Positions 11,975 to 62,556 of a stretch of DNA of 64,000 nt are shown piece after piece (position 1 is the stretch's first letter; the number at the start of each line of letters is the position of its first letter). The translations under genes were made by a program, and so were the position numbers. The stretch comes from Geothrix sp. 21YS21S-2 (lineage in GTDB: Bacteria; Acidobacteriota; Holophagae; Holophagales; Holophagaceae): contig NZ_CP132910.1 of the NCBI RefSeq assembly GCF_030846775.1, positions 4,777,001 through 4,841,000 on the forward strand. The letters run 5' to 3'. The notes beneath the pieces were generated by a model. It saw only the letters and a program-made list of their open reading frames with translations. It was not told the DNA's origin and did not search any database.

Positions 11975-12005
11975 CCAATATATAAATTAAATATATAAAA
12001 ATGTC
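11975..12005. promoter_or_regulatory. AT-rich promoter segment between divergent genes
   Basis: A run of TATATAAATTAAATATATAA in otherwise GC-rich DNA, between the minus-strand exported protein and the plus-strand gene at 12078. It contains several -10-like TATAAT variants on both strands, so it may serve both genes. Confidence 0.4.
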
Positions 12006-12077
12006 TGTCAATGGCTGGAACGGCCGTAGGGGTTGAGGGCACATGAAAGACAGCCCGACGATCGGGATGGAGAATTA

Positions 12078-12794
12078 ATGAATCTGCGCCTGCTTCTTGT
12101 CCCCGCCCTTCTGGTGGTCCAGCCCCTGCTCGCGACCAACCCGCCCGGCTACGACGTCGAGGCCGATCTCAGGGCCCAGGCGTGGCTCGACAAGCTGCAG
12201 GAGGAGGCACTCGCCCAGGGCCTGGCGACCCTGCAGGCTGCCCGGAAGGGACCGGTGCCTGTCGGTGCCCAGGCCAGGGCCCAGGAATGCCTGGTCCAGG
12301 TGGTCGGCAGCATGGCGGCGGTGCACCCCGACGCCTTGAGTTATCCAGGCAGCCAGGTGGCTTTCAGCTACCATGCGGTCATTCAGCCCAGGCTCGCGGA
12401 AAACGGCTTTCCGGGCTGGCAGGACCTGGGCGCGACGCTGGTCGCCCTGGGCTGGATGAAGGCGCCCCAGGCCTCCGTCCGTTCCAGCAGCAGTACGGGC
12501 TCCTCCAGTTCCAGCACCACCACTCTCCCCGCCACCCCTTCCGCCAGCCCGGCCAAGGCGCCCGCCACTCCGGCCCCCGCCGCCAGGACCCTGGCCACGG
12601 AAGGCCTGACCTTCCAGGAGGCCACGGCCCTGATCGCCGCCCTGAATCCCATGCTCCCCGACGGCACCTACGATGTTCCGGCCCTGAACGCGCGCCTCGC
12701 CACCGTGGCCTCCCACGACCTGGCGCTGGCCGCGAACCTGATGGGCCATTACCGCCTCGAGCAGGCCCGCCTGAAGGCGGCGATCACCCGCTAA
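12078..12794 (+). CDS. hypothetical exported protein with Ser/Thr/Pro linker
   Basis: 238 residues. Signal peptide MNLRLLLVPALLVVQPLLA, then a helical segment of ~90 residues, a low-complexity linker rich in Ser, Thr, Pro and Ala (~135-175), and a helical C-terminal domain (LTFQEATALIAALNPMLPDG...). GGAG lies 7-9 bp before the ATG, which decides the start over an upstream one. No known family was recognised. It is directly followed (TAA-ATG) by a small ORF in the same frame. Confidence 0.65.
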   Translation: MNLRLLLVPALLVVQPLLATNPPGYDVEADLRAQAWLDKLQEEALAQGLATLQAARKGPVPVGAQARAQECLVQVVGSMAAVHPDALSYPGSQVAFSYHAVIQPRLAENGFPGWQDLGATLVALGWMKAPQASVRSSSSTGSSSSSTTTLPATPSASPAKAPATPAPAARTLATEGLTFQEATALIAALNPMLPDGTYDVPALNARLATVASHDLALAANLMGHYRLEQARLKAAITR

Positions 12795-13013
12795 ATGCGC
12801 GCCACCCCGGGCCTCACGTTGCACACCAGGGCCCAGGCCGTCCACAACGCCAGCAGCGCCGTTCTTGGGCTTGGCATCGGGGGGCCTCCCATTGGAGGTG
12901 TTGGGGCTGCAGGCGGCGCAATTATTGCTGGTGTTGGAGCATTGAGTTATACAGGAGTCACAGAGGGTATTAAATTGCAGAAAACGTTGAGCACGATTAA
13001 ATATAACTGGTAA
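12795..13013 (+). CDS. small Gly-rich hydrophobic protein, function unknown
   Basis: 72 residues beginning right after the upstream stop codon, so any translation is probably coupled. The middle is Gly/Ala-rich and hydrophobic (GGPPIGGVGAAGGAIIAGVG), resembling a glycine-zipper or bacteriocin-like membrane helix, and the end is basic and AT-rich. Base composition shifts from GC-rich to AT-rich inside the gene (~12880), suggesting a DNA junction. The frame stays open for 23 more codons beyond its TAA stop to a TAG at 13083. It could be a real small peptide or the remnant of a longer protein. Confidence 0.35.
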   Translation: MRATPGLTLHTRAQAVHNASSAVLGLGIGGPPIGGVGAAGGAIIAGVGALSYTGVTEGIKLQKTLSTIKYNW

Positions 13014-13121
13014 GCAAATTACAGAGCAATCCAAAATTATTCAGATATAAACTGCGCTGGAGCTCTTCCTGAAATTCGGTATTAGGTGCCTTTTGGGCCA
13101 ATTATGTTGAAAGAACTAGCA

Positions 13122-13346
13122 ATGAAACACAAAAGAATAAAATGGACCCAGGCTATAATAATTCTTGTGTCATTGTGTCTGCAAAAACCTTTTTATAAAT
13201 TAACTGGTATAAACAATTGCATTGATAATCTTGGATTTTTCCCAAGCCTTGCAGTTGCATCCATGGTGCTTCTCGGAATTATGCATATTTTATTTTTATT
13301 TGTTTATCGTATCATTAAACACCTTTGTCCTGATTTTTTCGCTTAA
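13122..13346 (+). CDS. small membrane protein A of a tandem paralogous pair
   Basis: 74 residues from ATG 13122 (MKHKRIKW), preceded by GAAAG; alternative starts are ATG 13104 and GTG 13086, the last giving 86 residues. Two hydrophobic helices (AIIILVSLCL and VASMVLLGIMHILFLFVY) flank a conserved loop, KLTGINNCIDNLGFFP, and the end is HLCPDFFA. The protein aligns along its length with the next gene, including the G-I-x-N-C-I-x-x-L motif. Codons are AT-rich, unlike almost all other genes in the window. No family recognised; an immunity-type or inner-membrane role is a guess. Confidence 0.55.
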   Translation: MKHKRIKWTQAIIILVSLCLQKPFYKLTGINNCIDNLGFFPSLAVASMVLLGIMHILFLFVYRIIKHLCPDFFA

Positions 13347-13428
13347 TGACTCATTTTATACGGGATCTGATTCGGGTGATAGCTGCTAAGCGAAGTCAAA
13401 TTCATGGCAAATTGAACAGAGGTGGTGA

Positions 13429-13689
13429 ATGGTTAAAATGAATAATATCAATATTATACGAATCGCAATTATTTTGCCTTGTGTTGCTCTTAAGCAACCC
13501 ATTAATAATTTCCTTGGTATTGGCAATTGTATTCATGATTTGACTCTATTCCAGCGGTTCGTGTTTGAGATCGTAACGCTTTTGGGCCTGTTCTACATGT
13601 TTGGCTTCATTGTATTTAATTTTTTTAAATTATGTTATCCGTCTTGTTCTGCCAAAATGAATGAGCTGATCCACAAGAATTCAAGATAA
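13429..13689 (+). CDS. small membrane protein B of a tandem paralogous pair
   Basis: 86 residues. The start ATG follows a strong ribosome site, AGAGGTGG, which is the best evidence that this islet is translated. Helix 1 (IIRIAIILPCVAL), the loop with FLGIGNCIHDLTLF, and helix 2 (VTLLGLFYMFGFIVF) followed by LCYPSC match the layout of protein A; the C-terminal tail is longer and polar. Shared Cys in the loop and a Cys-Pro near the end are notable. AT-rich codon use suggests horizontal origin. Function unknown. Confidence 0.65.
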   Translation: MVKMNNINIIRIAIILPCVALKQPINNFLGIGNCIHDLTLFQRFVFEIVTLLGLFYMFGFIVFNFFKLCYPSCSAKMNELIHKNSR

Positions 13690-14129
13690 CCGCCCTGCGA
13701 ATCACCCCTGATCCGGCGTCGGACAACTTTCCTTCCCCAATTCCGGTCCTTTATCCCAAACCTGGCGGCCGCGTCGTTTGGGATGATGGTATTAATTGCA
13801 GCCGCTAACCTTCCCGGGTGGTCCGGAGAAGGGCAGGACCTTCAAGGCGCCTTGAAGTCCGTGGAGGCTTTCTGCTCAGCCGAGTTCGACGGCAAGTATC
13901 AGAATAGTTAGTAAATCGGGCTCGCAGGAACACGAACGCACACCTGTGCCGGCGCGATGACGCGCAGCCCGATCTTACGTTCTTGGACAGGCCCGGATCG
14001 GTCCCTGGACCCGAGCTTCGCCCTTCGGGATCACTGTTCCCGGCGGTAGGCTGAGATGCGGAAAGACCCTGGTCCACCTACCCCAATCGGGCAGGCCGGG
14101 AACTGACGTCACGGGCGTTGCAGGGACGG
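13690..14129. other. intergenic region between AT-rich islet and transposase remnant
   Basis: No gene is supported. It returns to GC-rich composition. A perfect 9-bp inverted repeat, ATCCCAAAC (13753-13761) / GTTTGGGAT (13776-13784), with a 14-nt loop could be a terminator for the small-protein genes or an end structure of the IS91-type element. Open frames on the minus strand here (for example 13805-14077) are Arg/Ser-rich and lack ribosome sites. Confidence 0.45.
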
Positions 14130-49046: not shown

Positions 49047-49218
49047 GCAAATCGTGAAGCCCAGGCCTTCCGGGCATCTATTTTCATAGAGTCATGGAAA
49101 TAAATGGCCCCTGGATGGGGTTGATTGTATGATCGGAGCCATCATATCGGCCGATCTTTCTGTACTAATTTGGGTAATTGCTGGTTCTTTTCTTCGGCTT
49201 CAATGCGAAGGGGCATCC

Positions 49219-52200
49219 ATGAGATTCACATTGCGCAACTCCGGGATCATCCTTTCTGCCACCTGCTTGGCGCTGCTTTGCGCATGCGGCGGAGGTGGTA
49301 ACAGTCCCAGCAACAAAGTTGCGGTGAATTCGGCGCCGTCGGCCACGGCCCCCGTTGTCAATGCCACGACCAACACCCTCGTGGAATATAAGATATACAC
49401 CTTTACCACCAGCACGACGGATCCCGACCTGGGCGATTCCGTCGCCAGCTGCATCTGGAATTTCGGGGACGGCACGCCGGTCCAGACCGTGACCGCCGCG
49501 CCGTTCACCGCCCAGCACGCGTTCCGGTCGGCGTCCAACGCCCTCACGGTGACGGTGACGCCCACCGACAGCCACGGCCTCGCCGGGACCGCCGTCGCCA
49601 CCACCTTCACCGTCACCCAGGCCTCCAACCCCTTCACGGTCAGCCCGGTCGCGCCGGCCGCGCCCAGCACCCTGCAGACCCAGGTCGGCAGCAACGTTCT
49701 CTACACCTTCGACTTCACCATCGACCTCGACCCCGCCAGCGGGCTCACCTACAACGCCGCCGGCATCACCTTCAAGACCAACGACCCCCTGGCGACCGGC
49801 AGCAGCCCTGTGGTAACGGCCAAGCCCGGCACCACCAACGAATGGACCGCCACCGCCACGTTCCCGGCGGCCGCCACCACCGACAGCCGCACCTTCTCGC
49901 CGACCGTCTCGGTGCAGGACACCACGGGCGTCCTGCTCAGCGATCTCGTGACCCTGCCGGCCATGACCGTCAACACCACCCTCAGCGTCGCGCAGGCGCC
50001 GATCATATCCCTGGTCGCGTCGGCCGACATTCCCGTCCCAGGCGCCGCCAATTCGACCTGGCAGAACGTCCCGATCACGTTCACCGCCACGGCGGTGGAT
50101 CCCCAGAACGCCTCCCTGACCTACAGCTGGACCTTTGGCGACACCGGCGCGGTCGGGGACGTCTCCAGCACCACCTCCCTGACCCAGACCCACACCTACG
50201 CGGCCGCCGGCATCTACACGATGGCCTTCAAGGCCGACAACGGGATCCCGGGCGGGAACAAGTCCATCTCCCTGGTCCTGAACATCCTGGCCAACGCCCC
50301 GCCCGTCCTCGCCTACACCCAGAACCCCACCGGCAACCCCTTCGCCTACCAGCCCATCACCTTCACCGCCGGCGTGACCGACGCCAACGCCGACACGCCG
50401 ACCATCACCTGGGATTTCGGCGACGGGACCGCCAAGGTCACCGGCGCCACCGCGACCCACGCCTGGACGGCCCAGGGCATCTCCAACGCCTCCGTGACGG
50501 CCGACGACGGCAAGGGCGGCGTCACCACGGTCGCCATTCCCATCACGGTCCAGGCCAACCTGCCCCCGGTCTCCAGGATCACCACCCCCGCGGCTTCCGG
50601 CCTGCTCCAGAACAAGGTGTACGCCTTCACCGCCTCCGCCACGGACCCGAACACCTCGGACACCATCCAACAGTTCGTCTGGGACTTCGGCGACGGCAAC
50701 ACCGTGACCTCGGCCCCCGACGCGAGCCCCACCGGCACGACCCGCACCACCACCGTCAACCACACCTTCCCCACCACCGTCACCGGGACCATCCCCGTGC
50801 GGGTCCGGGCCATCGACGCCAACGGCGGCGTGGGCGACTTCAGCCCCTCCGTGGCCTTCCAGGTGGTCAACACCCCCCTGCCCGTGGTCGCCTTCACCAC
50901 GCCGGGCGCCACCACCCTTAACGTGGACCTGAACGGGACCGTGAGCCAGGTGTTCACCTTCACCGTGACCAACCCGAGGGCCGGCGCCGGCGGCGCGACC
51001 GATCCCATTCCCGCCAACCTCATCACCTTCCAGCCCAACGACGCCGGGGCGACGGTCACCAGCCTCGTCAGCACGGGCGGGGGCGCCTACGCCGCCACGG
51101 TGCAGTACCCCGGCGCGGCGGCCACCGGCACCCGGACCTCCACCCCCTCGGCCTTCGCAACGGACAGCCTGGGCATCGTCGGCGTCCCCGCCAGCGGCCC
51201 GGTCATGACCATCAAGACCCTGGGCGCGAACCACAAGCCCGGGTTCACCATCAGCACCCCGGCGGCGCCGATCACCTCGGCCCTGACCTCCAAGGCCGTC
51301 AGCCTCGTCTTCGCCGTTTCCGACCAGGACAACGATCCGGTCTCCTACACCGTCGACTGGGGCGGACCCGACTCCGCCTGCCAGCCCAGGGTCGTCACCG
51401 GAACCACCACCACCAGCACCAGCGCCTCGGGCGGATCGGTGGTGACCCTGAGCCACATCTACCCGGATGCGTTCACCGGGAATGCCACGGTCACCATCAA
51501 CGGCACCGACAACCGCAGTTCGAACGCCGCCGCCACCCAGGTGTCGTTCACGGTCACGGTGTCCCTGAACGCGCTTCCCACGGCTTCCATCTCCTCCCCC
51601 CAGGCCTCGGGGACCCCGCCCCCGGATCCCAAGACGATCCTGGACGGCGGCAAGGGCGTCCCCGTCATTCCCGCGGGCGACTCCGATCCCGACGTCGTCT
51701 ACATCCCCGCCGGCGGCAAGCTCCTCTTCGCCGGCACCGGCGTGGCCCCCACCTCCGGTGGAGCCCTCACCTACGCCTGGACGTTCCCGGGCGGCGTGCC
51801 CAGCGCCAGCGGCGTCGCCAGCCCCGGCGAGGTCTCCTTCCCCGGCGAGGCCGGCAAGATCATCGCCTACCGCGTGGACCTCACGGTGACCGACACCACC
51901 GACGTGCAGGACCCGGCCAACAGCTGCGCGAAGGTCGGCCGCTCCAGCCTGGTGGTCCCCAAGAAGACGCGCAAGTGGGTGGTTGTGGACGGCATCAACA
52001 CCCAGCTGTTCACCCTGAACTTCCTCTACCGCCAGATCAAGGACGATACCGGCCAGGCGGTCACGCCCCTGCCGAAGGTCACCACCGCCGCCAACGGCCT
52101 GGGCGCCACCATCCAGATCTTCCAGGACGGCATCACCTACAGCTATGCGGTGGCCGATTCCCAGGGCATCAACGCGACCATCTCGGTGCCGGTCCGCTCG

Positions 52201-54108
52201 GACCTGCCCTTCTGGATCGACATCCCCTCCTGGACGAATCCGGCGATCCCCGACAGCCGGTCCTACTTCATGCGCATCCCCAACGCCCCCACCGGCGCGT
52301 TCATGGATCCGACCCTGGGCGCGACCCTGGATTCCACCACCACGGTCTCCTCCTTCGGCTTCGAGAATCCCGCGGCTGCCGTCGCCCCCTGGAACCCGGT
52401 CCTGAACATCGTGACCGCCCAGGGCTTCGCGGCCGAGACGGCCGTCGCCTCCCTGCGCAAGCTGCAGGGAACGACCGCCCTGCCCGGCGGGATCCCGACG
52501 GACCGCTGGCTGTTCCGTCCCTCCGTGCCCTGGACCGCTCCCGTCTGGGAAGAGAAAGACAACATGGCGGCCACCTTCTCGGGCATCCAGGCCTTCCAGA
52601 TCTTCGCGGAATGGCCCCTGATGCTCAAGACGATCCCCACGGTGGAAACCACCAGCGCCGGCACCTCGGCCAACCTGGGCTTCAACCTCGACTACCCCAC
52701 CTATCAGGGTGACTCGGCCGTCCCCAATACCTACAAGGCTTCGGAGTTCCAGGCCTTCCGCGCCCCCGGCGCGTCCACGGACCCCTATGACCTGGATGTG
52801 GCCGGCTGGAGCTCGGACACGGTGAGCCTGTCCCCGCTGCCTGTGGCAGGCGCCGTTCCCGCCTTCTTCAACGCCGCGGTGTACGACTCTCAGGGTGCCT
52901 CGGCCTTCTCGGGCGGTCTGGCCGACCTCCTCATTCCCTACGACGCCAACGACGTCAACCGCCAGGTGATCACCCCTTCCACCCGGCCGCTCAATCCCAT
53001 CCGGAGCGTCTTCTCCTACTCCGAATACCTCTGGTCCAGGGTCTGGCAGTGGCCGGTCACTCTGAACGCCGCCGCCCTTGACTGGCAGAACTCCAAGAAC
53101 GGGATGCTGGCAGGCTTCCCGGGCTTCCGCTACACCTCGGCCACCACCTGGCCGAGCCACGCGGGCATCACCCCCCGGAACAGCGCCTTCAACCTCAACG
53201 CCACGGGCCAGGGCACCTTCGATGCCTCCTTCCCGGCGGCGGAGAACGGGCTGGTGCCCAGTCCCAACGGCGTCGGCCGCTTCTTCTGGACCGCGTTCAC
53301 GCCCTACTACAACAGCGTCTCGGGCTGCACCATCGCCCGCACCTGGCTGGCCGACGGCACCACCCTGCAGCCGCCCACCGGCCTCACCGGGGTCGCCTCC
53401 GGCGACGCCACGGCCAGGTTCGGCTTCGTCCCGCCCCAGGACACCATGGTCGACAAGCGCGGCCGGAACGCCGACGGCAGCCTCAAGATTCCCAACCCCC
53501 TGGTCACGGATACGCCCAGCCTCGGCGGCTACCGGGTCACCTGGTTCAATGCCACCAAGGACAGCCTCGGCGCCCCGGTCGCCCCCGATTTCTGGGTCGT
53601 GGAACTGGCAACCGACCAATCAACTCAGCACTTCATGTTGCCAGGCAGCTTCCCGGCCCAGACCGTTGCCGGCAATCCGTCCAGCGGCTATCCGGTCTTC
53701 AGCGGCACCACCACCCCCAACCCGGACACGCTCCCCATCCTCACCGACGCCCGGGTCACCATGACCAGCGGCCAGATCTATACCGACCCGGTGGCCAAGA
53801 CGACGTTGATGACCACCGTCGCCCCAGGCTACTGCTGGTTCGACGTCCCCTTCGAACTCCGGCCCTCCGGCTCCGCCACCCTGCGGGTATACGCCCTCAA
53901 GGCGATCACAGCCAACAACGCCGGGGGCAAGCTGGTTCCCCGCGCCCTCAACCGGACGGAGTGGATCGAGGCCATCAAGACGGCAACCGGCAACGTCCAC
54001 ATCAAGGCCAGCGATGGCAAGGATCTCAGCTACGCCTACAAGATCCCCTTCAACTACCACTGGGACATCGTGGTCACCAACGGCCCCGCCACCCCCGTGG
54101 CACCCTGA
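49219..54108 (+). CDS. giant PKD-repeat lipoprotein
   Basis: 1629 residues. Lipobox CLALLCAC then Gly-rich anchor. Residues ~35-900 hold several PKD domains with the hallmark WDFGDG or WTFGD and trailing HTF/HTY strands. The C-terminal ~700 residues are a non-repetitive domain with many aromatics (RTWLADGTTLQPP, WLFRPSVPWTAPVWEE), not recognised as a known enzyme. It is the large paralogue of the preceding gene. The chosen ATG at 49219 gives a proper lipoprotein signal; an upstream in-frame ATG does not. A terminator and small barrel gene follow. Confidence 0.8.
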   Translation: MRFTLRNSGIILSATCLALLCACGGGGNSPSNKVAVNSAPSATAPVVNATTNTLVEYKIYTFTTSTTDPDLGDSVASCIWNFGDGTPVQTVTAAPFTAQHAFRSASNALTVTVTPTDSHGLAGTAVATTFTVTQASNPFTVSPVAPAAPSTLQTQVGSNVLYTFDFTIDLDPASGLTYNAAGITFKTNDPLATGSSPVVTAKPGTTNEWTATATFPAAATTDSRTFSPTVSVQDTTGVLLSDLVTLPAMTVNTTLSVAQAPIISLVASADIPVPGAANSTWQNVPITFTATAVDPQNASLTYSWTFGDTGAVGDVSSTTSLTQTHTYAAAGIYTMAFKADNGIPGGNKSISLVLNILANAPPVLAYTQNPTGNPFAYQPITFTAGVTDANADTPTITWDFGDGTAKVTGATATHAWTAQGISNASVTADDGKGGVTTVAIPITVQANLPPVSRITTPAASGLLQNKVYAFTASATDPNTSDTIQQFVWDFGDGNTVTSAPDASPTGTTRTTTVNHTFPTTVTGTIPVRVRAIDANGGVGDFSPSVAFQVVNTPLPVVAFTTPGATTLNVDLNGTVSQVFTFTVTNPRAGAGGATDPIPANLITFQPNDAGATVTSLVSTGGGAYAATVQYPGAAATGTRTSTPSAFATDSLGIVGVPASGPVMTIKTLGANHKPGFTISTPAAPITSALTSKAVSLVFAVSDQDNDPVSYTVDWGGPDSACQPRVVTGTTTTSTSASGGSVVTLSHIYPDAFTGNATVTINGTDNRSSNAAATQVSFTVTVSLNALPTASISSPQASGTPPPDPKTILDGGKGVPVIPAGDSDPDVVYIPAGGKLLFAGTGVAPTSGGALTYAWTFPGGVPSASGVASPGEVSFPGEAGKIIAYRVDLTVTDTTDVQDPANSCAKVGRSSLVVPKKTRKWVVVDGINTQLFTLNFLYRQIKDDTGQAVTPLPKVTTAANGLGATIQIFQDGITYSYAVADSQGINATISVPVRSDLPFWIDIPSWTNPAIPDSRSYFMRIPNAPTGAFMDPTLGATLDSTTTVSSFGFENPAAAVAPWNPVLNIVTAQGFAAETAVASLRKLQGTTALPGGIPTDRWLFRPSVPWTAPVWEEKDNMAATFSGIQAFQIFAEWPLMLKTIPTVETTSAGTSANLGFNLDYPTYQGDSAVPNTYKASEFQAFRAPGASTDPYDLDVAGWSSDTVSLSPLPVAGAVPAFFNAAVYDSQGASAFSGGLADLLIPYDANDVNRQVITPSTRPLNPIRSVFSYSEYLWSRVWQWPVTLNAAALDWQNSKNGMLAGFPGFRYTSATTWPSHAGITPRNSAFNLNATGQGTFDASFPAAENGLVPSPNGVGRFFWTAFTPYYNSVSGCTIARTWLADGTTLQPPTGLTGVASGDATARFGFVPPQDTMVDKRGRNADGSLKIPNPLVTDTPSLGGYRVTWFNATKDSLGAPVAPDFWVVELATDQSTQHFMLPGSFPAQTVAGNPSSGYPVFSGTTTPNPDTLPILTDARVTMTSGQIYTDPVAKTTLMTTVAPGYCWFDVPFELRPSGSATLRVYALKAITANNAGGKLVPRALNRTEWIEAIKTATGNVHIKASDGKDLSYAYKIPFNYHWDIVVTNGPATPVAP

Positions 54109-58031: not shown

Positions 58032-59111
58032 TCAGAGACGGTCGATGCGGATCTCGATCTTGCCGGCCTTGACCGTGGGCTTGGGGGCCTCGGGCACGTG
58101 GCGGGAGGGCTCGGGCTTGCGGCGGGGTTCCGGGGCGGAATCCCGGGGTTCGCGCGTCTCCCTGGCTTCCCGGGGCTCCCGGTTTTCCCGTTCGGACCGG
58201 TGCTCGGAGCGGTGCTCCTTGTGGCCGTGGTCCCGGCGGGGGCGGTCGGAGGCGGGGCGGTCGGCGGCGGGCGCGGGGGCCGGGGCGGGTTTGCCGGCCC
58301 AGGCGATGCCCACCTGCTTGATGCGGTCCTGGAGCCGCTGCGGCTCGATCACCTGGATTCCGTCCCCGAACTGCATGGCCCAGCGGGCGATGGCCCGCAG
58401 ATCCGTGCCGACGAAGGTGACCTGGGCCTTGCCTTCCTCCAGTTCCTCGATGACGAATTCGGGGAAGGGGGCGGGGGCCTGGCGCACGGCGAAGATCCAC
58501 TGCTTGAGCAGCACGGCCTTCACGCGGATGGGCTCGCCGCCAAGCCAGCCGCCGATGAGGTTCGCGGCGGTGCCTTCCTTGTAGGGGCCCTGGGCCGCGC
58601 GGCCCATGCCCTCGACGGGACCCACCTGGGCGATGAGGTCCAGCCGGTGGTGGCGCTCGGCGTTGTACCGGCGGTCCCAGCCCCAGACGTACCATTCCCT
58701 GGCGAAGGTGTCGAAGATCAGCTGGCGGGGTTCGAAGGTGCGGGGCGGATTGGTCTCGGCGTCGACAAAGAGCAGCTCCACGGCGGCCCCGTCCTGGATG
58801 GCCTGCAGCACGGCCCGGGCCGGGGCGGTGAGGGGGTCTCCCGCGGGGGCCGCGGGCAGGACGGCGGGCACGGGCGCGGCGACGGCGGGAACGGACGCCT
58901 CGAGGGTGGGTTCGGGCACGGCGGCGGGGGCCGTCGGCGCGGCGGCCCTGGGCTTGCGCGCCGCTTTCGGGGCGGGGGCGGCAGGCGGGGCGGCTACGAC
59001 GGGGGCTGCGGCTTTCCGGGTCCGGGGCTTGGCCGTCTTTGCTTCGGGGGCCGCCTCAGGCGTTCCAGCTTCAGGGGCGGCGGCAACCTTCGTGGATTTT
59101 CGTGGGGCCAT
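58032..59111 (-). CDS. WYL-domain protein with basic and acidic disordered tails, no HTH
   Basis: 359 residues. Residues ~100-260 form a WYL domain (REWYVWGWDRRYNAERHHRL, DLIAQVGPVEG, then a WCX-like LLKQWIFAV...GDGIQVIEP). The first ~90 residues are Ala/Pro/Lys-rich with repeats like KPRTRKAAAP, similar to histone H1 tails. The C-terminus is a charged Arg/Glu/His tail (HKEHRSEHRSERENREPREA). WYL proteins usually have an N-terminal HTH; here it is replaced by these tails. Binding to nucleic acid via the tails is a guess. Confidence 0.75.
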   Translation of the reverse strand: MAPRKSTKVAAAPEAGTPEAAPEAKTAKPRTRKAAAPVVAAPPAAPAPKAARKPRAAAPTAPAAVPEPTLEASVPAVAAPVPAVLPAAPAGDPLTAPARAVLQAIQDGAAVELLFVDAETNPPRTFEPRQLIFDTFAREWYVWGWDRRYNAERHHRLDLIAQVGPVEGMGRAAQGPYKEGTAANLIGGWLGGEPIRVKAVLLKQWIFAVRQAPAPFPEFVIEELEEGKAQVTFVGTDLRAIARWAMQFGDGIQVIEPQRLQDRIKQVGIAWAGKPAPAPAPAADRPASDRPRRDHGHKEHRSEHRSERENREPREARETREPRDSAPEPRRKPEPSRHVPEAPKPTVKAGKIEIRIDRL

Positions 59112-59224: not shown

Positions 59225-59662
59225 TTAGATGCGCGCCCGGGGTGGGCCGAGCACCTGCTCGACCTCCTTCTGCACTTCCTCCAGGGAGGAATCGCCGTGG
59301 ATGGCGATGAACAGGGCGTCTTCGCCCGCCACGGTGCCCGCCACGCCCCTGACGGTGGTGCGGTCCACCCGCAGGGCGAGGGCCTGGCCGAGACCCTGGT
59401 GGGTCTGGAGCACGAGGAGATTGGGTGCGGACGGGACGAAGGCGTAGGGCGGGGGGGGCTGGGCGGCGCTGGGGACCCGCTGGTAGCGGCCTCCCCGCTT
59501 GCGGATGGAAAGCCGGGCCAGGCGCCGGGACAGGGTCCCCTGGGTGAGGGCGTAGCCGTCCCTGGCCAGCAGGTCCAGAAGGGTCGCCTGATCGGGCACC
59601 GCATGTTCGGCCAGAAGCCGGAGGATGACTTGATCAATGATTCGTTTTCCGGATTCGATCAC
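59225..59662 (-). CDS. argR: arginine repressor ArgR
   Basis: 145 residues. N-terminal winged helix (ALTQGTLSRRLARL, cf. VTQATVSRDL) and C-terminal oligomerisation/arginine-binding domain with RGVAGTVAGEDALFIAIHGD. As in other ArgR proteins it should be a hexamer that represses arginine biosynthesis genes and may activate breakdown genes; arcA, carAB and rocD in this window are candidate targets. The upstream region is AT-rich and could hold an ArgR box. Confidence 0.88.
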   Translation of the reverse strand: MIESGKRIIDQVILRLLAEHAVPDQATLLDLLARDGYALTQGTLSRRLARLSIRKRGGRYQRVPSAAQPPPPYAFVPSAPNLLVLQTHQGLGQALALRVDRTTVRGVAGTVAGEDALFIAIHGDSSLEEVQKEVEQVLGPPRARI

Positions 59663-59914: not shown

Positions 59915-60883
59915 TTATGATCTTGGGTGCATCCGGTCGTACAGCGCCCTGAGCCGGGTCTGGTGCACGTGGGTGTAGATCTGGGTGGTGGAGATGTCCG
60001 CATGGCCGAGCATCGACTGCACGGCCCTCAGATCGGCGCCATGGTCCAGGAGGTGGGTGGCGAAGGCGTGGCGCAGCACATGGGGGCTCACGGCCTCCTG
60101 GCGGATGCCCGCCCGGACCGCGTAGGCCTTCAGGAGGCGCCAGAACTGCTGCCGGGTGAGGGGTTCCCCCCGCCTTCCCACGAACAGGGTGTCGTCCTGG
60201 GGCCTGAAGGAGGGGCGCAGGGCCAGCCACCGGCGCACCCAGTGCTCGGCGCTCTCGCCGAAGGGGATCAGGCGCTCCTTCCGGCCCTTGCCCATCACCT
60301 TGAGGAAGCCCTCGTCCAGGAACACCGTGAGGCCGGAAAGGCCCGCCAGCTCGGAGACCCGGAGGCCCGAGGCGTAGAGCAGCTCGATCCACGCCCGGTC
60401 CCGCACGCCCAGAGGCGCGTTCAGGTCGGGCGCGCCCAGGAGGGCCTCCACCTGGGTTTCGGAAAGGGTCCTGGGAAGGATGCGGGGAGGGCGCGGCGGG
60501 CGCACCACGGACTCGGGGCCCGCGGCGCCTTCGCCCTCCATGCGCATGAAACCCAGGAACTGGCGGAGCGCCGAGGAGAGGCGCGCGATGCTCCGTGCCG
60601 CCTTGCCTGTGGACTGCTGTGACACCAGGAACGCCGTGACCCGGTCCCGGTCCAGGTCCGAGGGCGGCAGGCCGGCCCCGGCGGCCCACAGGGCCAGGTG
60701 CTGGAGGTCGGAGAGGTAGCCCGAAACCGTGTGGCGGGAGAGCCCGCGCTCGACGGCGAGGAAGACCTCGAACTCGCGCAGGGAGGTGCTCCACCCTAGG
60801 GGCCAGCCCCTTTCGGGGACGGGATTCTGGACGGGTCGCGGCATGCCATCCAGTCTAGCCGCTTGGCATTCCGGAAAAGCCAT
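59915..60883 (-). CDS. xerD: XerC/XerD-family tyrosine recombinase
   Basis: 322 residues from ATG 60883, chosen because ACGAGG sits just upstream; an ATG 13 codons later is the alternative. N-terminal SAM-like DNA-binding domain and C-terminal catalytic domain with R175 in GLRVSEL, K around 199-202, H268-x-x-R271 in SPHVLRHAF, H294 in MLGHADIS and the nucleophile Y303 in QIYTHV. It resolves chromosome dimers at dif, usually with a XerC partner. XerC versus XerD cannot be decided from the sequence alone. Divergent from acpP. Confidence 0.87.
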   Translation of the reverse strand: MAFPECQAARLDGMPRPVQNPVPERGWPLGWSTSLREFEVFLAVERGLSRHTVSGYLSDLQHLALWAAGAGLPPSDLDRDRVTAFLVSQQSTGKAARSIARLSSALRQFLGFMRMEGEGAAGPESVVRPPRPPRILPRTLSETQVEALLGAPDLNAPLGVRDRAWIELLYASGLRVSELAGLSGLTVFLDEGFLKVMGKGRKERLIPFGESAEHWVRRWLALRPSFRPQDDTLFVGRRGEPLTRQQFWRLLKAYAVRAGIRQEAVSPHVLRHAFATHLLDHGADLRAVQSMLGHADISTTQIYTHVHQTRLRALYDRMHPRS

Positions 60884-60913: not shown

Positions 60914-61153
60914 ATGGCTGAAATCCGCAAAAAGGTCATTGCGATCATCGCCGAGCAGCTTGCCAAGCCCGAGGATTCCATTTCCGAGAACAGTCACTTC
61001 GTTGACGATCTCGGCGCCGACAGCTTGGATACGGTTGAGATCATCATGGCCATCGAAGAAGCCTTCGGGATCGAGATCCCCGAAAGCGAGCAGGAGAAGA
61101 TCCGTACGGTTGGCGATGCCATCTCGTACATCGAGAAGAATGCCAAGGCCTGA
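60914..61153 (+). CDS. acpP: acyl carrier protein
   Basis: 79 residues, acidic. The 4'-phosphopantetheine attachment serine is S37 in DDLGADSLDTVE. It carries fatty-acyl chains in type-II fatty acid synthesis. AAGGAG precedes the ATG. It is followed by fabF, the common arrangement; fabD, fabG and rnc are absent here. Confidence 0.96.
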   Translation: MAEIRKKVIAIIAEQLAKPEDSISENSHFVDDLGADSLDTVEIIMAIEEAFGIEIPESEQEKIRTVGDAISYIEKNAKA

Positions 61154-61311: not shown

Positions 61312-62556
61312 ATGACCACCATTCAGCGCAGGCGCGTCGTCATCACGGGCATGGGGACCGTCAACCCCTGCGGCAACACCGTCGCCGAAACCTGGGAGAA
61401 CCTCCTGGCCGGCCGGAGCGGCATCGGGACGATCACGAAGTTCGACGTCACCGACTACGCGTGCAAGATCGCGGGCGAGGTGAAGAACTTCAACGCCGAC
61501 CTGTACATCGACCGCAAGGAACAGAAGAAGATGGATCTGTTCATCCAGTACGCCATGGCCGCCTCCCAGGAGGCCATGAACGACTCGGGACTGGGCGAGC
61601 TGAGCAAGGCCGAGCGGGAGCTGTTCGGCATCTCCATCGGCTCGGGCATCGGAGGCCTCTCCACCATCTGGGAGGAGGCCAACGGCTACCGGGGTCCCCG
61701 GCGCACGAGCCCCTTCTTCATCCCCAGCCTCATCATCAACCTGGCCTCCGGCTTCGTGAGCATCAAGTACGGCCTCCAGGGCCCGAACGCGGCCATGGCC
61801 ACCGCCTGCGCCACGGGCACCCACGCCATCGGCGACGCGGCCCGCCAGATCATGTTCGGCTATGCCGACCGCATGATCGCCGGCGGCAGCGACTCGGTCA
61901 TCAACCCGCTGGGCGTGGGCGGCTTCGGCGCCATGCGCGCCCTCTCCACCCGCAACGAGGCCCCCACCGAGGCCAGCCGTCCCTTCGACAAGGGCCGGGA
62001 CGGCTTCGTCATGGCCGAGGGCGCGGGCGTGGTGGTGCTCGAGGAGTACGAGCTGGCCAAGGCCCGGGGCGCGAAGATCTACGCCGAGGTCTGCGGGTAC
62101 GGCATGAGCGGGGACGCCCACCACATCACCAGCCCCAGCGAGGACGGCGACGGGCCCCGGCGCGTCATGGCCGCGGCCATCAAGGACGCCGGCATCGCCC
62201 CGGAGCAGGTGGGGTACGCGAATGCCCACGGCACCTCGACCCCCGCCGGCGACCGCATCGAGTGCTCCGCCCTCAAGGGCGTCTTCGGAGCCCACGTCGC
62301 CAGGCTCAAGGTGAGCTCCACCAAGTCCATGACCGGCCATCTCCTGGGCGCGGCGGGCGGGTTGGAGACCATCGTGGCGGCCCTCGTGGCCGGCACCGGG
62401 AAGATCCCGCCCACCATCAACGTGGTGGACCAGGACCCCGACTGCGACCTGGACGTGACGGCCAACGTCGCCGGCACCTTCGACGGCGAATACGTCCTGA
62501 ACAACAACTTCGGGTTCGGCGGCACCAACGGCTGCCTCGTCCTGCGGAAAATTTAG
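61312..62556 (+). CDS. fabF: 3-oxoacyl-ACP synthase II
   Basis: 414 residues. Catalytic triad of KAS II: C166 in [12 protein letters not shown]306 in [11 protein letters not shown] and H343 in [12 protein letters not shown]; the C-terminus ends [18 protein letters not shown]. Elongates acyl chains by condensing with malonyl-ACP. GAGGTG lies just ahead of the ATG. Follows acpP and is probably expressed with it. Confidence 0.96.

Follow-up and report, generated by a model that had tools for sequence, protein, structure and literature searches.

An HTH-less WYL-WCX protein with two predicted disordered tails in Holophagaceae

The gene, its domains and its neighbours

The window, a stretch of 64,000 nucleotides from the Geothrix sp. 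21YS21S-2 genome (Holophagaceae, in Holophagales, Acidobacteriota), carries an open reading frame at positions 58032–59111 of the minus strand. It starts with ATG, shows a GGAG 9 nt 5′ of the ATG, and encodes 359 aa followed by a stop. Pfam identifies a WYL domain at residues 100–163 (PF13280, E-value = 1.4e-6, 28.6 bits against a curated cut-off of 21.8) and after it a WCX domain at residues 213–266 (PF25583, E-value = 6.3e-9, 36.5 bits against a cut-off of 23.9). Beyond these two, a Pfam scan of the 359 aa protein at E ≤ 1 shows nothing, including no helix-turn-helix (HTH) family and no Hfq family (PF17209), and NCBIfam yields no family for it at E ≤ 1. The features of the locus are as follows.

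58032..59111, minus strand: whole gene, 359 aa plus stop, HTH-less WYL-WCX protein with two disordered tails (open reading frame, Pfam, ortholog alignment, AF2)
58836..59111, minus strand: N-terminal Ala/Pro/Lys-rich disordered segment (N-tail), residues 1–92, beginning MAPRKSTK (composition, AF2, orthologs)
58623..58814, minus strand: WYL domain (Sm-like barrel), residues 100–163 (Pfam PF13280, AF2, fold search)
58644..58694, minus strand: ligand loop WYVWGWDRRYNAERHHR, residues 140–156 (ortholog alignment, profile alignments)
58314..58475, minus strand: WCX domain, residues 213–266 (Pfam PF25583, AF2)
58071..58292, minus strand: Arg/Glu/Pro/His-rich disordered linker, residues 274–347 (AF2, dN/dS, charge)
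58035..58070, minus strand: conserved C-terminal tip KAGKIEIRIDRL, residues 348–359 (ortholog alignment, pattern search)
59225..59662, minus strand: second ArgR paralog, 113 bp upstream of the WYL gene and flanked on its other side by xerD (profile match; 5 of 20 informative loci)
59915..60796, minus strand: xerD-type tyrosine recombinase, the usual upstream neighbour (Pfam/NCBIfam; 17 of 20 informative loci)
60914..61147, plus strand: acyl carrier protein gene, divergent from xerD, edge of the conserved block (locus comparison)
61312..62556, plus strand: fabF, divergent, edge of the conserved block (Pfam, locus comparison)

The original prediction described a WYL domain between an Ala/Pro/Lys-rich segment of about 90 residues and an Arg/Glu/His-rich segment. 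The WYL domain is borne out by the Pfam score over cut-off and by the fold search. The two segments were placed correctly, at residues 1–92 and 274–347, and their composition is extreme. Among 361 mechanically called open reading frames, some probably in the wrong frame, from a 464-kb sample of this genome, made up of the window and twenty stretches of 20 kb, the protein ranks first for the fraction of A+P+K in any 80 aa (0.69) and second for the fraction of R+E+H+P+K in any 60 aa (0.73). The WCX domain, the C-terminal tip and the altered ligand loop are all three additional to that prediction.

Of 23 loci examined, three (G051, G062, G075) have too little flanking sequence, leaving 20 informative. 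The usual order is fabF and acpP in divergent orientation, xerD, in some genomes a second argR, and then the WYL gene. The xerD gene lies upstream on the same strand in 17 of the 20 (7 genera; two seen only partly): close by in 7, separated by the second argR in 5, and at a distance of 1 to 2 kb in 5. It is not nearby in G057, G060 and G061, which belong to genera g7 and g8. The second argR lies between xerD and the WYL gene in G000 (the genome of the window), G066, G067, G053 and G071 (genera g1, g5 and g10); ArgR matches, which occur in 66 of 77 genomes overall, number two or three in each of these five. Genes downstream of the WYL gene vary among loci. In two g7 genomes (loci L046 and L052) a gene that by eye resembles RNase E/G is divergent upstream of the WYL gene, in the place of xerD.

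A PADLOC scan at E ≤ 0.01 gives no defence family in the 9 neighbouring proteins of the window, and the WYL protein itself matches only generic WYL models. A defence island in this window was rejected on this basis. A promoter and terminator scan showed nothing useful.

Predicted fold, tails and tip

The AF2 model, built with 29 orthologs, displays no secondary structure before residue 96, and the N-tail blocks have pLDDT values of 42–51. The core is confidently predicted, with a helix at 96–107, the WYL strands within 111–165, and WCX elements between 195 and 271. Residues 271 to 350 appear disordered (block pLDDT 42–49). The last block, which contains the tip, has a pLDDT of 55, and in the model the tip is neither folded nor docked. 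The mean pLDDT of the whole model is 63.9 with a pTM of 0.34, and thus the model is confident in the core only.

As a positive control, an HTH-WYL-WCX paralog encoded in the same genome (G000:C1:1082662-1083693) was modelled. With only 16 sequences, AF2 recovers a winged HTH in it (helices 16–32, 36–42 and 48–60; strands 64–70 and 75–82). Lack of an HTH was part of the original prediction, which named a hidden HTH found by structure prediction as what would refute it; AF2 finds none in the N-terminal segment, and with the control a hidden HTH there was rejected. Pfam finds no HTH over cut-off in the paralog either (KfrA_N at 0.086 at best), and for this reason the silence of Pfam on an HTH is not counted alone. 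The paralog has a WYL-WCX core as well (hhalign E-value = 1.9e-21, 28% identity to the HTH-less protein), but differs in having the predicted winged HTH and linker helices and in having no tails.

A Foldseek search gives the DriD C-domain with a 9-mer ssDNA as the top PDB match (E-value = 3.7e-9), followed by PafBC, CapW with ssDNA, and BrxR; absence of a family from the matches of this search excludes no family. The sensor fold of the original prediction is thus supported. VIA-align of the model against DriD (9cu3_B) gives Z = 12.9 over 169 aligned residues with an rmsd of 11.4, a high value that is taken to reflect free placing of the WYL and WCX domains in the model. The Sm-like fold also matches Hfq in VIA-align (Z = 8.2 to 8.7), but unrelated or designed small barrels score higher (Z = 9 to 9.9).

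DriD of Caulobacter has an N-terminal HTH. Its WYL-WCX region with ssDNA (PDB 7tzv, 8tp8) is the best structural match of the core and has the same domain order, but the protein described here has two long tails and a changed loop arginine. DriD is described as a promoter-bound transcription activator (PMC12340889). At E ≤ 0.01 the family profile finds a single PDB sequence, PafC (2.1e-5 over the whole chain, the single stretches being weak), one chain of the mycobacterial DNA-damage activator PafBC (7p5x_AX, also 9fnd).

WYL architecture classes covering more than 90% of sequences are described as having an HTH before the WYL domain (PMC6789036), and because of this WYL is usually read as the sensor of a transcription factor. 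The class A HTH-WYL-WCX regulators of that account have an N-terminal winged HTH, which this protein lacks. WYL proteins with other fusions are described as well (PMC4012209). RspWYL1, a Cas13d accessory protein, is likewise a WYL protein without a canonical HTH, and is reported to bind ssRNA and interact with Cas13d (PMC6547453). However, it has a ribbon-helix-helix N-terminal domain and a CRISPR partner, whereas the present protein shows disordered tails and no defence genes among the scanned neighbours. In the literature, as partially covered here, no HTH-less WYL-WCX protein of this kind was found. The WYL and WCX domains themselves are already known.

The N-tail is present in all 29 aligned orthologs and varies from 46 to 143 aa. 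Its net charge, +6 for the 92 aa here, ranges from +1 to +19 across the orthologs and is thus positive in every one; on average the first half carries more of it than the second (mean +7.1 vs +3.3). The spread of charge across genera is no narrower than that given by random signs, and the sequence drifts. No histone or AT-hook Pfam family is matched in the 29 orthologs at E ≤ 0.1, a search to which such tails are poorly suited. "Histone-like", the term first given to this segment, is therefore overstated, since the N-tail is only mildly basic and its charge spread is no narrower than chance.

The linker is 40 to 80 aa long and has 11–37 charged residues, yet its net charge stays at +1 to +4 in 29 of 29 orthologs. 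Taken with one row per genus, the standard deviation is 1.2, compared with 5.0 for independent signs, and 0 of 20,000 simulations gave a value as low. The narrow range is weak evidence, because alternating Arg/Glu repeats would give balance without selection.

The tip, KAGKIEIRIDRL or a variant of it, ends the protein and is recognisable in 29 of 29 orthologs, with E353 and L359 present in all. It is unevenly conserved, and an additional residue occurs in g3-type rows (KVEVIRFDRL type). A degenerate form of the pattern matches once in the 5.25-Mb genome, in the WYL gene only, and a reversed-pattern control matches 0 times, ruling out a tag common to many proteins.

Distribution, selection and the ligand loop

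The HTH-less gene is found in 68 of 77 genomes of the order and in 10 of 11 genera, with one ortholog per genome. A match of some kind occurs in 69 genomes, but that of G027 (44 bits) is the paralog only. Among near-complete genomes of the order, 45 of 48 match. The gene was not found in three small g2 genomes, three g11 genomes, the incomplete G023 and G069, and G027, in a search that scored at most 26 candidates per genome. In a sample of 396 genomes of the phylum, with at most 5 candidates scored in each, a strong match is seen in 37 of 39 genomes of the family, and the other 357 show no full-length match and three weak partial ones; at these search depths weak relatives may have been overlooked. 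The three partially matching proteins have a long N-terminal region of ordinary composition in place of the tail.

WCX matches in 60 genomes of the phylum number 49. Among the 30 loci listed, of which about six have truncated or doubtful starts, only two (L153 and L154, both orthologs) show the tailed layout, meaning that an A/P/K segment exceeds 0.5 and that over 35 aa follow the WCX match. On these sequence comparisons, the HTH-less tailed WYL-WCX protein appears so far only in Holophagaceae. A mobile gene was rejected as a candidate: no relative is found in plasmids and none in viral contigs, the viral scan consisting of two short peptide patterns.

The ortholog alignment holds 29 of 37 distinct open reading frames, near-duplicates, truncated sequences and those with doubtful starts having been omitted. 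All 29 share the layout of two tails around a WYL-WCX core, and both Pfam domains are matched in each (E ≤ 0.1). The core is 181 aa long in 29 of 29, and 63 of its 181 positions are invariant, against 1 of 92 in the N-tail, 0 of 74 in the linker and 2 of 12 in the tip. In seven pairs, core dN/dS is 0.10–0.28. For the tails, where dN/dS rests on doubtful alignment, the linker gives 0.38 to 1.29 in the same number of pairs, and the tip (12 codons) gives 0 to 0.73, lying above the core in 3 of 7 pairs (0.40, 0.51, 0.73). Compared with seven loci of genus g3, the WYL core shows 68–73% identity (7 of 7), xerD 74–77% and fabF 76–79%. The HTH paralog and its best match per g3 genome share 41–46%, measured over the whole protein and thus on a different footing from core identity. 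By these comparisons the gene evolves as a housekeeping gene does, unlike the rapid change of a defence gene, and its core is under strong selection.

All 29 HTH-less rows cluster together (98/89) in a tree built from 47 cores, next to the group of HTH paralogs (93/98). The tree is midpoint-rooted, and a program warning states that the long branches between these groups may not be real. The direction of change, an HTH lost and not gained, is insecure because of the rooting and the long joining branches.

The ligand loop of the WYL domain has been rewritten and then frozen (WGWDRRYNAERHHR). R147, R148, R153, H154 and H155 are present in 29 of 29 orthologs, and R156 in 27 of 29. Position 159, just past the loop stretch 140–156 and the site of the canonical second arginine, is L, Q, A or I and is Arg in 0 of 29. 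hhalign matches L159 to R222 of the HTH-bearing paralog, a position that is Arg in 16 of 16 sequences. A weak HMMER alignment (9.0 bits for the stretch) pairs F200, R201 and R204 of PafC with H155, R156 and L159, and published residue numbers agree. Thus of the two canonical loop arginines (R201/R204 in PafC, R211/R214 in PafB) the first is kept in 27 of 29 orthologs, the second is absent in 29 of 29, and other basic residues are fixed.

In PafBC, replacing the arginine pair in both subunits, or in PafB alone, is reported to abolish ssDNA binding (PMC11804915). The protein described here shares with PafBC the R201 equivalent and the WCX Pro and Leu, but PafBC bears an HTH and is heterodimeric, and the R204 equivalent is replaced in every ortholog. 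Two WCX residues, P257 and L260, occur in all 29 orthologs and agree with the Pro and Leu that are described as conserved at the WCX interface of PafBC (PMC6789036), where WCX is a dimerisation module. Since the predicted groove is basic and frozen but non-canonical, a changed ligand is as likely as ssDNA. From the alignment, the lost canonical arginine could mean no ssDNA binding at all.

Proposed mechanism and alternatives

The protein is best read, with a probability of about 0.4, as a WYL-WCX sensor of a nucleic-acid-type ligand whose output would pass through a partner-binding tail and not through promoter binding. Its origin is most likely an HTH-WYL-WCX regulator that lost its HTH and was then kept under strong selection. 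The WCX domain would make a dimer. The basic WYL groove would take single-stranded nucleic acid, or some other anion of nucleotide type, as its ligand. Its specificity would be shifted from that of PafBC and DriD, because one canonical arginine is lost while R147, R148, H154 and H155 are fixed. The mildly basic N-tail may keep the protein near nucleic acid. The signal would be passed on as the C-terminal tip, carried on the charge-balanced flexible linker, binds a partner protein. Overall the protein would act as a ligand-gated adaptor rather than as a promoter-binding transcription factor.

A wider proposal is possible but less probable. It is that these proteins form a WYL class in which the DNA-binding head was traded for disordered tails, a ligand-gated nucleic-acid sensor presenting a conserved C-terminal peptide to a partner (e.g. 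XerD, RNA polymerase or a nuclease), and that WYL domains may be general nucleic-acid-sensing adaptors and not transcription-factor modules. A family kept without an HTH, with its loop frozen and its C-terminal peptide kept, would show a WYL sensor wired to another output. It also offers a small testable set of residues and one peptide usable as bait.

The HTH-less protein may instead be one half of a PafB/PafC-like heterodimer with the HTH-WYL-WCX paralog, modulating the DNA binding of the latter. The paralog is a close relative by profile, the two groups adjoin in the tree, and P257 and L260 of the WCX domain are kept in the HTH-less protein. The paralog (E < 1e-50) co-occurs in 56 of the 68 genomes with the HTH-less gene, and is found without it in only 3 of 59 (G023, G027 and G069), genomes that are 80, 58 and 81% complete. 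However, 12 of the 68 (G053, G055 to G063, G071 and G075) have the HTH-less gene and no paralog, among them all five g7 genomes, four of which are at least 90% complete. In addition, a large distance separates the two genes in this genome, and 22 kb separate them in G052. Such a heterodimer is unlikely.

The reading first given for this gene, a nucleoid- or RNA-associated protein with a WYL sensor, is about equally improbable. By an Hfq-like logic, its tails would bind nucleic acid without specificity and the WYL domain would sense or regulate this. It draws on the match of the Sm-like fold to Hfq, on an N-tail whose net charge is positive in every one of the 29 orthologs and on average higher in the first half, and on the report that Hfq controls its Sm core through a disordered C-terminal tail whose tip is acidic (PMC5606850). 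Both proteins combine an Sm-like barrel with a disordered tail that has a conserved end, but Hfq is a hexameric ring without WCX, and the tip described for E. coli Hfq is acidic (PMC5606850), whereas the tip here is of mixed charge. Against this reading, the N-tail has only a mildly basic character (+6 of 92), with a charge no more constant over genera than chance and a drifting sequence, and unrelated or designed barrels outscore Hfq. In addition, this genome already has an Hfq-family match, though a weak one (2.5e-4, under cut-off), and such matches occur in 65 of 77 genomes, 15 of them over cut-off. The idea that the WYL protein replaces a missing Hfq is weakened by this.

Another Sm-fold protein of the lineage, of the Hfq family, also carries tails with conserved ends in the five genomes compared. 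Its gene (L127, at G000:C1:972500-974100, and L128–L131) encodes a long N-terminal extension starting MNRKLIRP and a short C-terminal tail ending in YD or FD.

In Xer recombination of ColE1, ArgR serves as an accessory protein. The recurrent order of xerD, in some loci the second argR, and the WYL gene, with xerD lying upstream of the WYL gene and on its strand in 17 of the 20 informative loci, could point to an accessory factor for Xer recombination or the handling of chromosome dimers. This is very unlikely, as a gene order shared by relatives counts for little, other genes lie in between at some loci, and genomes of g7 and g8 (G057, G060, G061) keep the WYL gene without a nearby xerD. A decayed transcription factor on its way out, which the missing HTH and the missing canonical ligand arginine might suggest, is ruled out for practical purposes by the core dN/dS of 0.10–0.28 in seven pairs, by the 181 aa core without length change in 29 of 29, by the presence of the gene in 68 of 77 genomes, and by frames open in the 29 aligned sequences, the in-frame stops seen in G053 and G075 being outside the aligned open reading frames.

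Elsewhere in the window, positions 49129–54108 hold a 1659 aa open reading frame with no PADLOC family which, by eye, displays a lipoprotein-like start after the first ATG and repeated Ig/PKD-like stretches. Positions 12001–14000 show a G+C fraction of 0.544, compared with about 0.65–0.74 in the other 2-kb steps, and may be an acquired stretch.
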